Source: Candidatus Endomicrobiellum cubanum
GTDB taxonomy: Bacteria > Elusimicrobiota > Endomicrobiia > Endomicrobiales > Endomicrobiaceae
Direction of reading: 5' to 3'
Length of the DNA: 32,835 bases
Assembly (NCBI GenBank): GCA_031269735.1
Contig: JAISYS010000049.1
Coordinates: forward strand, 1 to 32,835
A model generated the notes under the pieces. The model was given only the letters and a program-made list of their open reading frames with translations, had not been told where the DNA came from and did not search any database. Positions 28,662-32,835 of this stretch are shown here, piece after piece. The translations under genes were made by a program, and so were the position numbers. Numbering within the stretch: position 1 is the first letter of the stretch; each line of letters opens with the position of its first letter.

Positions 28662-29441
28662 ATGATTAAAGTATATTTAAAAATGTTTATAAGATCTTTT
28701 TTTCTTCAAGCATTATGGAATTTTGAAAGAATGCAAAACATAGGTTTTATTTATATCTTAAAGCCGTTTTTAGATAAAGTTTATTTAGATGATAAATCTA
28801 AGCAAGAAGCCTTAATGAGACATGCAGGTTATTTTAATACTCACCCATACATGGCAAATTTATTAATTGCTATAGTTGCAAGCTTAGAAAAAGATAAAAG
28901 TGAAAATAAAGAGGATACGATTAATATAAGTAGCATTAAAAATCAAATGGCAGGACCACTAGCAGCTATTGGTGATTCATTATTTTTTGGCACGTTAAGA
29001 CCTTTAGTAGCTTGTTTTAGTATTTTAATTATGTTGCTCTTTATGAAATTTCTAGATCAGAATTTTCAAAAGTATGCGATTTTTGTCCCTATTATTTTTA
29101 TTATTACTTATAATATTTTTCATATAGCTTCTAGAGCTTGGCTTATGTTTATAGGATTTAAATTTAATAGAGACAGTTTATCTATAATATCAAGTGTTAA
29201 AATTTTAATGCCTATAATAAAATATATTGGATTTTTTATTTCTACAGTTGCGTTATTTGTGTATTTGCTGATTTTTAAATCTAGCCCTATAAGTAGTTTG
29301 TTTTTTGGAAGTAAAGAAAATGACTTAGCTATATATATAATAGTTTTTTTGTTTTCAATAATTTTTAATAGATTTGGAGTAGTTTTTTTAATTTATAGTG
29401 TAATAATTATATGTTCTTTAATATCATATTTAAGGATTTAA
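28662..29441 (+). CDS. mannose-family PTS EIID
   Basis: EIID (259 aa) forms the transport unit with EIIC. It contains FFLQALWNFERMQNIGFIYIL at the N-terminus, RHAGYFNTHPYMANLLIAIV, and KNQMAGPLAAIGDSLFFGTLRP, all hallmarks of the family, then hydrophobic helices in the C-terminal half. Slightly short compared with the usual 275-300. It begins one base after the EIIC stop and HPr follows two bases after its own, so the three are one unit. Confidence 0.88.
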   Translation: MIKVYLKMFIRSFFLQALWNFERMQNIGFIYILKPFLDKVYLDDKSKQEALMRHAGYFNTHPYMANLLIAIVASLEKDKSENKEDTINISSIKNQMAGPLAAIGDSLFFGTLRPLVACFSILIMLLFMKFLDQNFQKYAIFVPIIFIITYNIFHIASRAWLMFIGFKFNRDSLSIISSVKILMPIIKYIGFFISTVALFVYLLIFKSSPISSLFFGSKENDLAIYIIVFLFSIIFNRFGVVFLIYSVIIICSLISYLRI

Positions 29442-29443
29442 AA

Positions 29444-29707
29444 ATGAAAGAAAAAATTATTACAGTTTCTAATAAAATGGGCTTGCATGCAAGACCTGCG
29501 GCTATGCTTGTTCAAGTTGCAAGTAAATATCAATCTTCTGTGAAAATTATAAAGGATAACTTTGACATAGATGCAAAGAGTATTATGGGAATTATGACTT
29601 TAGCTGCAGGACAGGGAAGTCAACTTAAATTTGTGGCAGACGGACCAGATGAAAATGAAGTTTTAACTGAGCTTGAATGTTTGTTTAAGTCTAATTTCAG
29701 TGAATAA
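29444..29707 (+). CDS. ptsH: phosphocarrier protein HPr
   Basis: HPr (87 aa) passes phosphate from enzyme I to EIIA proteins. Both regulatory residues are present: His15 in MGLHARPAAML and Ser46 in DAKSIMGIMTLAAGQG. Ser46 is the HprK target, matching hprK at 23128. ATG 29444 is chosen for the standard N-terminus; AAGGA lies about eight bases upstream. A longer reading from inside the EIID gene is unlikely. It is followed 12 bases later by ptsI. Confidence 0.96.
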   Translation: MKEKIITVSNKMGLHARPAAMLVQVASKYQSSVKIIKDNFDIDAKSIMGIMTLAAGQGSQLKFVADGPDENEVLTELECLFKSNFSE

Positions 29708-29719
29708 AAGGAAATTAAA

Positions 29720-31462
29720 ATGTCAAAACTGGAAAATATCATTTTAAAAGGGATCACAGCTTCTGGAGGTGTTAGTGTAGGAAAAGCGTTTCTTTTAGAC
29801 GACGATGATATTTGTTTGATTTATAGAGAAATTCCTAAAAATGCAAGAGAAAATGAAAAGAAACGCTTTGATGATGCGATTGAGAAAACAAGACAAGAAT
29901 TTAAAGAAATTTATAATAAAATTAATGATATTTTAGGTGAAAATTATGCTCATATAGCAGATACTCATATTTTGATTTTAGATGATATGAATATGAGAAA
30001 AGATGTTTATAAGCTTATAGAAGAGGGTAGTAATGCAGAATATGCAATATTTAAAGTAATGGATAAGGTTATTCGTTCTTTTGAGTCAATTAAAGATGAC
30101 TATTTTAAAGAGAGAAAAGTTGATATTCAAGAAGTTGCTAAAAAGATTTTAACGAATTTACTTGGAAAACGAAAAAGGAGTTTTAGAGATTTAAAAGAAA
30201 ATTCTATAGTTGTTGCTCATAATTTGACCCCTGCAGACACTGTTACAATAAAAGAAAAACTAATCAAAGGTTTTATTACAGATGTTGGTGGAAAAACTTC
30301 ACATACTGCTATTATGGCACAGGGATTGGGTATACCTGCTGTTGTTGGTTTAAAAGTTGTATCTTCTCAAATAAAAACAGGTGATACAATAATACTAAAT
30401 GGAAATACTGGTGAAGTGATATTAAATCCGTCTGCTGAGTTATTAGAAAAGTATCAAAAAGAATATGATAGGCAGAATGAAGTTATAAAAGAGCTAAAGA
30501 AATTAAAAGATTTACCTATTGAAACGTTAGATAAGCGTAGTGTATTAATTTTTGCAAATATTGACAATCCTGATGAAGTATCTTCTGTTTTAAATAATGA
30601 AGCAAAAGGGATAGGTCTTTATAGAACAGAATTTATGTATTTTAACCGCAATAGTATTCCATGTGAACAGGAACATTTTGAGGCGTATTATAGAGTTGTA
30701 AAAGAAATGTCAGGATATCCTACAACTATAAGGACTGTAGATTTGGGTGGAGATAAGCTTGCAAAGTTTGGACTCTTAAAGCTTGGACGAGAGCAAAATC
30801 CATTTTTAGGGTTAAGGGCTATAAGATTATGTCTTAAATATCCTGATGATATTTTTATTCCTCAATTGAGAGGTATTTTAAGAGCTTCTGCTTTTGGAAA
30901 AGTAAGACTTATGTATCCTATGATATCAGGTCTTGATGAGCTTCGTGATGCAAATAAAATACTTCAAGATGTCAAACAAGACTTAAGAAAAACTAATATA
31001 AGTTTTGATGAGGATATGGAAGTTGGCACAATGATAGAAATACCATCTGCGGCTGTTATTATGGACATGATAGCTAAAGAAGTAGATTTTGTTTCAATAG
31101 GGACTAATGATTTGATACAATATACTTTAGCAGTTGATAGAATAAATGAAAACGTTGCTAATATCTATAATCCTATGCATCCTGCAGTTTTGAGGCTTAT
31201 AAAGCATATTATAGATAATGCTCATAAAGAAAAAATAGAAGTTGGTATGTGTGGTGAAATGGCAGGAGATCCATATTATACGCCTATCCTTTTAGGATTT
31301 GGTCTTGATGAGTTTAGTGTATCGCCATTTCAAGTTCTTAAAATAAAAAAAGTTATATGTGGCGTATCTTTTGAACAAGCAAGAGCAATATCAGCTAAAA
31401 TTTTAAAATGTGGAGATAAAGAATCCATTTCAAAAATAGTGAGTGCGATACAAATGATCTAA
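29720..31462 (+). CDS. ptsI: PTS enzyme I (PEP-protein phosphotransferase)
   Basis: Enzyme I (580 aa) takes phosphate from phosphoenolpyruvate to HPr. The active histidine is His195 in DVGGKTSHTAIMAQGLGIPA. The C-terminal barrel has IGLYRTEFMY, RTVDLGGDKL, LGLRAIRLCL, VDFVSIGTNDLIQYTLAVDR and GMCGEMAGD with the catalytic cysteine. Length matches the family. AAAGGA precedes the ATG. As the last PTS gene it completes a full phosphorelay in one cluster. Confidence 0.97.
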   Translation: MSKLENIILKGITASGGVSVGKAFLLDDDDICLIYREIPKNARENEKKRFDDAIEKTRQEFKEIYNKINDILGENYAHIADTHILILDDMNMRKDVYKLIEEGSNAEYAIFKVMDKVIRSFESIKDDYFKERKVDIQEVAKKILTNLLGKRKRSFRDLKENSIVVAHNLTPADTVTIKEKLIKGFITDVGGKTSHTAIMAQGLGIPAVVGLKVVSSQIKTGDTIILNGNTGEVILNPSAELLEKYQKEYDRQNEVIKELKKLKDLPIETLDKRSVLIFANIDNPDEVSSVLNNEAKGIGLYRTEFMYFNRNSIPCEQEHFEAYYRVVKEMSGYPTTIRTVDLGGDKLAKFGLLKLGREQNPFLGLRAIRLCLKYPDDIFIPQLRGILRASAFGKVRLMYPMISGLDELRDANKILQDVKQDLRKTNISFDEDMEVGTMIEIPSAAVIMDMIAKEVDFVSIGTNDLIQYTLAVDRINENVANIYNPMHPAVLRLIKHIIDNAHKEKIEVGMCGEMAGDPYYTPILLGFGLDEFSVSPFQVLKIKKVICGVSFEQARAISAKILKCGDKESISKIVSAIQMI

Positions 31463-31510
31463 AAATAAATTTTGTCAGGTATACAATTTTAAGATTTAAA
31501 GGAAATTTTT

Positions 31511-32835
31511 ATGGAAAATATTATAGATAATTGTCCTAAAGAAATTGAATCTGTTGTAGCTATGTTACGTAATTTTTCACCATCTAATCCAATAGAAAAT
31601 GCTGTTATATATTTTTGGGAGAGCCATAATAAGCATTCTGATGAAAAGATGAAAACACAAGCTACAGCTGACTTAATTTATAAAGAATTTGATCTACTTT
31701 CTTGTGAAAAATACGAAGTACGTACAGGATATTTAAATCGTTGGAATTATATGCCAAAACCTTTAGAAATATGCACTAAAGACGAAATAGAAAAAGCTAT
31801 AATTAGAGGTAAAGAAGAAGAATCTGAATGGCTTAATAGATGCCAACCTGATTTTACAGATTTTATAAAGAAAGATTGGCAAGATTGTATATCTGGAGAG
31901 AAAAATCCATACTATGAGAGTTGCAAAAATCTTGTTATTAAAAAGATAAATAATGATGAAATTTTTGCTAATGCTTTTAGTAAAAGTGTTGATGAATTTT
32001 TATCTACTCATAATACTGACAGAATAAATTGTAATTCATATATTATAGAAGAAACTTCATGGATACTTACGCTTCCATTGTTACATTTAAATAAGCCTAT
32101 ATATTTGGTACACATCGGAAGTGCTAATAGTGCTGTTGTAGCAATGTTTCATCATTTCTCAAATCTTCAAAAAGCAGTAAAGTGGTTATCTCCTCGCTTT
32201 AGTGTAAGTAAATTTCAAAATGCTTCTGAATTTTTGTTGGATTATAGAAATGCTTTACATGTCGGGCACTCATATGCGGTTGAAAATAGACAAATTGTAC
32301 AAGAAGTAAAAATTTTTAAGAAACAAAAAGAGCAAAATTTAAAAAATTCAGAAAAATTATTGAAAAATGAGTCTATAAAAAATAATTTATTGAGTTCTAT
32401 CATTGATGAAATACCGTGTCATGTGTATTGGTTGGATTGTAATAATGTTTATCAAGGCTGTAATTATATGCAAGCTAAAACTTTAGGATTGACTTGTTCT
32501 GTTGATATTATTGGAAAAACTAATTATGATTTACATAGTGTTGATGAAGCAAATAAGTTAAATGAGATTAACTATGCTGTTATGAGCACAGGTCAATATA
32601 GTGAGAGTGAAGATACAATTTCTTTAGATGGCCAATTTAAAAAGTTTTTATCGAAAAAAACACCTCTTTTCGATGCGGGAGGGAAAGTTATTGGATTGTT
32701 AGGAGTCTCTTTTGACATAACAGATAAAAAAAGAGCAGAAGAGTTGGAGAAACAAAAAGGATTATATGAAATAGCAAAGGGAGTAGCACATGACATATGT
32801 TCGCCACTAGCAGCATTAGAGATGGTAGAATATAT
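31511..32835 (+). CDS. sensor histidine kinase with N-terminal cyclodipeptide-synthase-like domain (cut by window edge)
   Basis: The frame is open for 441 codons to the window end. Residues about 12-230 resemble tRNA-dependent cyclodipeptide synthases (CDPS): AIIRGKEEESEWLNRC, a KKDWQDCISGEKNPYYESC stretch, IFANAFSKSVDEFL, and SYIIEETSW, where Tyr177 and Glu181 form the YxxxE pair equivalent to Tyr178/Glu182 of AlbC; HIGSANSAVVAM follows like the family's YPxxRNAAMEA. The catalytic serine expected near 36-38 is unclear (WES). A coiled stretch (about 265-295) leads to a PAS domain (295-405: VYWLDCNNVYQGCN, IIGKTNYDL, GLLGVSFDITDKKRAEE), then the HisKA box VAHDICSPLAALEM with His427. The ATPase domain would lie beyond the edge. 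It follows ptsI after 48 bp with GGA seven bases before the ATG. The CDPS assignment is by eye. Confidence 0.75.
   Translation, partial: MENIIDNCPKEIESVVAMLRNFSPSNPIENAVIYFWESHNKHSDEKMKTQATADLIYKEFDLLSCEKYEVRTGYLNRWNYMPKPLEICTKDEIEKAIIRGKEEESEWLNRCQPDFTDFIKKDWQDCISGEKNPYYESCKNLVIKKINNDEIFANAFSKSVDEFLSTHNTDRINCNSYIIEETSWILTLPLLHLNKPIYLVHIGSANSAVVAMFHHFSNLQKAVKWLSPRFSVSKFQNASEFLLDYRNALHVGHSYAVENRQIVQEVKIFKKQKEQNLKNSEKLLKNESIKNNLLSSIIDEIPCHVYWLDCNNVYQGCNYMQAKTLGLTCSVDIIGKTNYDLHSVDEANKLNEINYAVMSTGQYSESEDTISLDGQFKKFLSKKTPLFDAGGKVIGLLGVSFDITDKKRAEELEKQKGLYEIAKGVAHDICSPLAALEMVEY

Follow-up and report, generated by a model that had tools for sequence, protein, structure and literature searches.

A domain of cyclodipeptide synthase fold joined to a PAS sensor kinase in protist endosymbionts of the termite gut from two bacterial phyla: apparently a detector made from an enzyme

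At the 3' end of a 32,835-nucleotide stretch of Candidatus Endomicrobiellum cubanum DNA (GenBank assembly GCA_031269735.1, contig JAISYS010000049.1, positions 1 to 32,835 of the forward strand; hereafter the window), an open reading frame (ORF) starting at position 31511 joins a domain of predicted cyclodipeptide synthase (CDPS) fold to a PAS histidine kinase. The presence of a CDPS-fold domain ahead of the kinase, conserved and mobile among endosymbionts, is well supported by the data presented below; the combination is common to two bacterial phyla, in protist endosymbionts of the termite gut, and apparently represents a detector made from an enzyme. It is likely that the input domain derives from a CDPS and that its catalysis has changed, and we put at about 0.5 the probability of the reading that a CDPS enzyme was recruited as the input domain of a kinase, where it would read aminoacyl-tRNA or a cyclodipeptide. 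Bacteria of the genus Candidatus Endomicrobiellum (Elusimicrobiota) are endosymbionts of termite-gut flagellates. The window is a whole contig (C57) and the ORF stays open to its end, so that the assembly breaks off within the gene. Its parts are as follows:

31511..32833, + strand: gene of the CDPS-fold domain, PAS and HisKA sensor kinase, 441 codons, 3' part lost at the contig end (ORF scan; Pfam PAS_4, E = 3.5e-6)
31498..31505, + strand: ribosome-binding-like stretch AAAGGAAA, 5 bases ahead of the ATG (sequence reading)
31511..32299, + strand: input domain of CDPS fold, residues 1-263, with ordered structure beginning near residue 12 (AlphaFold2, Foldseek, hhalign)
31622..31624, + strand: Ser38, putative equivalent of the catalytic nucleophile Ser37 (conservation, strand end, helix spacing matching that of the XYP CDPS at locus L069)
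32039..32053, + strand: Y177-I-I-E-E181, putative equivalent of Tyr178 and Glu182 (Y177, E180 and E181 invariant in 30/30 homologues; hhalign onto YLLEE of XYP CDPS)
32111..32116, + strand: H201-I202, replacing Tyr202-Pro203 (XYP) or Tyr202-His203 (NYH) (H201 in 30/30; inside strand 197-202)
32387..32743, + strand: PAS domain, residues 293-411 (TIGR00229 at 293-411, PAS_4 at 305-408)
32765..32833, + strand: start of HisKA with the phospho-acceptor His427, codon 32789-32791 (motif VAHDICSPL)

The original prediction, made by a model from the letters alone, had proposed a CDPS-like domain fused to a PAS/histidine kinase at this place. The ORF, the CDPS motifs, the PAS domain and the phospho-acceptor His of the fusion gene are confirmed, the motifs standing at EWLNR (residues 106-110), W123-Q-D-C-I127, Y134-Y135, Y177-IIE-E181 and H201-I-G-S-A-N-S-A-V. 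The PAS_4 match is above the cut-off, H427 lies in a HisKA-type motif, and the PAS domain shares 40% identity with, and is of the same type as, the PAS of a CDPS-linked kinase encoded elsewhere in the genome. Residues 1-263 matched no Pfam or NCBIfam family, both libraries recognizing the PAS/kinase part only. An ATPase domain and a response regulator had been suggested to lie beyond the window; the contig ends before them, and complete homologues of the fusion continue into HATPase_c (E down to 5e-19) and a receiver-like C-terminus, the latter weak and below the cut-off (E = 0.005 in L034 and 8e-4 in L076). Judged from sequence, the gene appears to have the features of a hybrid histidine kinase, PAS and the His being seen in the window and HATPase_c and the receiver being taken from the complete homologues.

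The fold of the N-terminal domain, which defines the first fused family (group 1), was predicted with AlphaFold2 after alignment of 18 homologues, the model of residues 1-263 reaching a pLDDT of 90.5 and a pTM of 0.86. In a Foldseek search of this model against the whole PDB, ranks 1-37 were all taken by CDPSs and the class-I tyrosyl-tRNA synthetases (TyrRS) appeared from rank 38; the best match was the XYP-type CDPS of Fluoribacter dumoffii (5ocd, E = 1.6e-9, TM 0.74 by target), with 9i5m and 5mlp then among the leaders, and identity to the best-matching PDB CDPSs was only 18-20%. The profile of 30 homologues from Endomicrobia and Holosporales was aligned by hhalign with an XYP CDPS profile at E = 3.4e-5 and a probability of 72% in the expected register, i.e., Y177..E181 onto YLLEE and EW..R..W onto GDEW..RN..RWD. 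The XYP profile is shallow (three sequences: one full, two fragments); in a column-shuffle control none of 100 shuffles reached the real score (best 25.6 vs 40.5), and the accepted relation between XYP and NYH types, calculated with similarly shallow profiles, scored lower (33.1). The comparison with an alignment of NYH-type endomicrobial CDPSs was weak (1.5%), which, set against the XYP match, places the relation of group 1 on the XYP side. The CDPS family PF16715, expected by the original prediction to match the N-terminal region, did not do so by hmmscan up to E = 1; this negative carries little weight, because PF16715 also misses the XYP CDPS of Candidatus Endohaliclona. Thus, residues 1-263 are modelled with the HUP/Rossmann fold of CDPSs and resemble these more closely than they do class-I aminoacyl-tRNA synthetases, and both the profile-profile relation to CDPSs and the Rossmann core of the class-I synthetase-like type, on which the original prediction had staked itself, were borne out.

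The catalytic residues of CDPSs are Ser37, Tyr178, Glu182 and Tyr202, with N40-H203 in the NYH type and P203 in the XYP type (PMC13062777). Tyr202, the cyclisation residue, is strictly conserved in active CDPSs; in AlbC, the aminoacyl-enzyme still forms upon the Y202F replacement and the dipeptidyl-enzyme accumulates, whereas Y178F impairs loading (PMC5935735). In group 1, S38, Y177, E181 and H201 are invariant throughout the 30 homologues, the chance of four pre-chosen positions all falling among the 26 invariant columns being 8e-5. Residue 202, at the 203 position of CDPSs, is Ile or Val in every homologue, and neither the NYH nor the XYP signature is present. The H-I pair in place of Y-P or Y-H, already recognized in the original prediction, is therefore real; its doubt as to the nucleophilic serine has to be dropped. 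In the AlphaFold2 model S38 lies right after the first Rossmann strand (32-37), seven residues ahead of the next helix (from 45), and it is separated from the helix end by the same gap-free distance (S+18) as the serine in the Endohaliclona CDPS. The CDPS-like domain of intact copies is under purifying selection as strong as that on the PAS-kinase part (dN/dS 0.12-0.35).

Further kinases with a different CDPS-fold front (group 2) are encoded in the same genome, intact on contig C29 and with stops or frame breaks on C39 and C60. The model of this second domain has a pLDDT of 91.9, and its best 33 PDB matches are all CDPSs (5ocd, E = 1.5e-11). Among 16 intact sequences from both lineages, Ser37 and Tyr202-Pro203 are kept in all and Glu182 in 15, and Phe stands at the place of Tyr178 in 16/16. 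The endomicrobial standalone CDPSs keep all four catalytic residues, unlike either fused family. This complementary replacement of a single catalytic Tyr in groups 1 and 2 is the main argument, an indirect one drawn from sequence comparison, for a sensory rather than synthetic role. It lends the same indirect support to the original preference for a sensor over catalysis. The group 2 loci (L016 580-3084, on C29 of the same genome; L015; L017) are multi-copy, and many of them are decayed.

The same kind of kinase accompanies unfused CDPS genes. The standalone CDPS of this genome (C4:10836-11492; PF16715, E = 2e-48) overlaps by 4 bases the gene of a PAS-PAS-kinase homologous to the kinase part of the fusion. 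The pair (L001 1468-3644 and L013, the latter being C4:10836-13306 of the same genome) recurs in several genus-mates. These standalone CDPSs retain S37, Y178, E182 and Y202, position 203 being Lys. A gene of a small PQ-loop (SemiSWEET-like) membrane protein is located 3' of the kinase gene in genomes G000, G030 and G022, the pair of the present genome included, and PQ-loop genes of the same type directly precede fused genes in Endomicrobia (G026:C4, G009:C59) and Holosporales (G361, G379). Altogether 21 PQ-loop matches were found in 12 genomes: 10 adjoin a CDPS-type gene, 8 are housekeeping copies beside mnmG/flavodoxin-like genes, 2 occupy a nadE-like site where G009 still has a fusion, and 1 lies elsewhere. 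At the nadE-like site the PQ-loop gene stands alone in L127 and L128 (G005:C49, G014:C24) and the related locus L096 (G009:C59) keeps a group 2 fusion, which looks like kinase loss in the former. Plasmid p-ren of the sponge symbiont Ca. Endohaliclona renieramycinifaciens (Legionellales), a small plasmid (MK748464.1; L069 2710-5350), carries an unannotated XYP CDPS gene followed 37 bases later by that of a kinase with a PQ-loop N-terminus and two PAS domains 37-40% identical to the PAS of the fusion. Thus the association of CDPS, PQ-loop and PAS-kinase of this type, in split or fused form, is seen in three phylogenetic settings. In L057 (7692-10028) and L047 (G014:C22), a group 1 fusion has a fragment of a CDPS pseudogene immediately 3' of it, on the same strand.

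Group 1 homologues occur in the genus-mates G030, G026, G025, G040 and G004 and, with decayed copies counted, in 16 of 42 genomes of the genus; none was found in 58 more distant relatives. Among 50 Holosporales genomes, group 1 is present in 10 and group 2 in 25, while a sample of 385 Alphaproteobacteria gave group 1 in two genomes only, both already in the Holosporales set. In the group 1 tree the two phyla are intermingled, and no fewer than 4 well-supported switches are required, which shows repeated horizontal transfer between Endomicrobia and Holosporales lineages. Such switches are in line with the published transfers of other genes among flagellate symbionts, Alphaproteobacteria included (PMC11257099). 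Searches of viral contigs found no relative. Many of the copies in these genomes carry stops or truncations and are decaying. Within the genus, the standalone CDPS and the two fused groups tend to be found in the same genomes (Fisher 2e-4, 7e-5 and 3e-8, the first two values being those of the standalone CDPS with the fused families). When only genomes of 1 Mb or more are compared, the association is weaker (p 0.02-0.05); both genome reduction and kinship are confounders, and the former accounts for a part of it. Two Holosporales genomes, G361 and G362, have almost identical frames of 904 codons (L129 2380-5091, L130 2914-5625) that include a group 1 domain and lie beside an integrase-like gene, possibly a mobile element.

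According to the reading that we prefer, the N-terminal domain would be a diverged XYP-type CDPS that now serves, in the cytoplasm, as the input domain of a PAS histidine kinase ending in a receiver-like region. Group 1 would keep the residues that bind and load the first aminoacyl group in CDPSs (equivalents of Ser37, Tyr178 and Glu182) and have His for Tyr202, the residue releasing the cyclic product; the old active site may then read aminoacyl-tRNA, or a cyclodipeptide made by related CDPSs, and its bound or acylated state may set the kinase activity via the PAS linker. The N-terminal slot ahead of PAS-HisKA is the usual place of input domains in cytosolic kinases, which we count in favour of an input role. 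The ligand, the arrest of catalysis and the direction of signalling are inferred, and for the ligand the indications diverge: the retained loading residues point to aminoacyl-tRNA, while the lower isoelectric point (pI) and the association with the standalone CDPS and the PQ-loop protein point to a cyclodipeptide. Several observations weigh against this reading. The equation of S38 with Ser37 and of H201 with Tyr202 is drawn from spacing, secondary structure and conservation, and in one joint MAFFT alignment the serine of the XYP type fell at a variable column within the strand, five residues earlier. W36, a bulky residue two positions ahead of the serine, might leave less room in the amino-acid pocket. 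With mean pI values of 6.2 and 6.7, against 7.5-9.2 in the standalone CDPSs, the fused domains are less basic, which argues against strong tRNA binding. Finally, an invariant nucleophile together with the Tyr178 and Glu182 equivalents could equally fit a working enzyme, in which the His would serve as a proton relay.

The latter consideration leads to the main rival, an active self-signalling synthase with His for Tyr202, which we regard as possible though rather doubtful: the domain would use charged tRNAs to make a cyclic or linear dipeptide, to be sensed by its own PAS or by neighbouring cells, with the PQ-loop protein moving the product across the membrane. The invariance of all loading residues in group 1, the overlapping operon of an apparently complete CDPS with the homologous PAS-PAS-kinase and the PQ-loop gene, the plasmid order of XYP CDPS and PQ-loop-PAS-PAS-kinase in the sponge symbiont and the adjacency of 10 of the 21 PQ-loop genes to CDPS-type genes (8 others being housekeeping) all fit such a synthase, whereas the absence of Tyr178 from all 16 group 2 sequences and the lower basicity relative to tRNA-using CDPSs do not. 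The domain may instead have lost its chemistry and bind the cyclodipeptide made by the genome's own standalone CDPS or by co-resident symbionts; this is a narrower form of the reading we prefer, partly contained in its probability, and taken by itself we consider it unlikely. The co-occurrence of the standalone CDPS with both fused families, the low basicity of the fused domains and the sharing of PAS-kinase and PQ-loop with the standalone CDPS speak for such a receptor; however, the association fades in the larger genomes with the confounding already mentioned, and the invariant Ser, Tyr and Glu are not obviously required to bind a product. Moreover, no PF16715 CDPS was detected in the three fusion-carrying Holosporales genomes tested. 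A PF16715 search of 249 Pseudomonadota was likewise empty; neither result is usable as proof of absence, since the model misses XYP types.

A CDPS-like fold persisting as an inert remnant or scaffold, with sensing left to the PAS alone, would agree with the decay of many copies, but the purifying selection on intact ones and the invariance of active-site residues across two phyla render it improbable. Even less credence is due to a chance likeness of some generic Rossmann or HUP fold to CDPSs, suggested by the low identity and the failure of PF16715 and already largely refuted: CDPSs outrank all aminoacyl-tRNA synthetases and other Rossmann proteins, the XYP motifs EW..R and the W of RWD are in register, and the independent group 2 gives the same result.

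Compared with known systems, group 1 resembles the XYP-type CDPSs (F. dumoffii 5ocd, Nocardia brasiliensis 5mlq/9i5m, Rickettsiella grylli 5mlp) in predicted fold, in the Ser37, Tyr178 and Glu182 equivalents and in the EW..R and W motifs, and differs in having His-Ile/Val for Tyr202-Pro203, a kinase fusion, lower basicity and the 18-20% identity mentioned above. The NYH-like standalone CDPS of the same genome is likewise tied to a homologous PAS-histidine kinase, but as a separate gene (the 4-base overlap), with the four catalytic residues kept and Lys for His203. Larger proteins with an N-terminal CDPS domain are known and place it similarly; there, active CDPSs are joined to domains for tailoring or transport, and neither of the two papers concerned mentions a kinase. 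PAS hybrid histidine kinases share the PAS, HisKA His, HATPase and receiver-like C-terminus with the complete homologues, whose input domain, in contrast, has the predicted CDPS fold. GCN2 is a eukaryotic Ser/Thr kinase with a HisRS-like domain of class-II fold and senses uncharged tRNA. It may be regarded as a functional analogue sharing only the idea of a synthetase-related domain on a kinase reading tRNA status, and we claim no homology. In the searchable (non-subscription) literature we found no description of CDPS fusions or operons with a histidine kinase, two-component system or PAS, and the Endomicrobia genome papers examined mention neither CDPS nor such a kinase pairing.

CDPSs are known as natural-product enzymes, and the searchable literature gives neither a sensory use for them nor a dedicated kinase receptor for their products. 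The genome described here contains CDPS-type genes of three kinds, every one of them associated with a PAS-kinase of the same sort; two of the kinds are fusions, and in both of these a single catalytic residue has been exchanged. Quite tentatively, one might envisage a class of prokaryotic signalling systems that use CDPS-derived domains to monitor charged tRNA (in the form of an acyl-enzyme from which no product is released) or cyclodipeptides and to inform histidine kinases, with a PQ-loop partner; spread by transfer among endosymbionts of different phyla in the same type of protist, this class may have a role in the communication of co-resident symbionts with one another or with the host cell. 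The repeated Endomicrobia-Holosporales transfer makes the system a concrete candidate for signalling among symbionts sharing one protist cell, and the reading of cyclodipeptides or charged tRNAs by a bacterial kinase becomes testable by ordinary protein chemistry.

The genomic context of the fusion gene adds one further feature:

29411..31462, + strand: phosphotransferase system (PTS) HPr and Enzyme I genes, directly upstream of the fusion gene (genomic context)

This gene order is also found in two sister genomes and not in other homologues, and a functional tie of the fusion gene to the PTS genes was set aside, the order being conserved only in these two close relatives. Candidate promoter matches ahead of the fusion gene were no more numerous than in shuffled sequence. 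Many homologues stop at contig ends inside the kinase part (window 32780-32833; the ends of L002, L003, L004, L006 and L021), probably because several near-identical kinase copies per genome disrupt the assembly.
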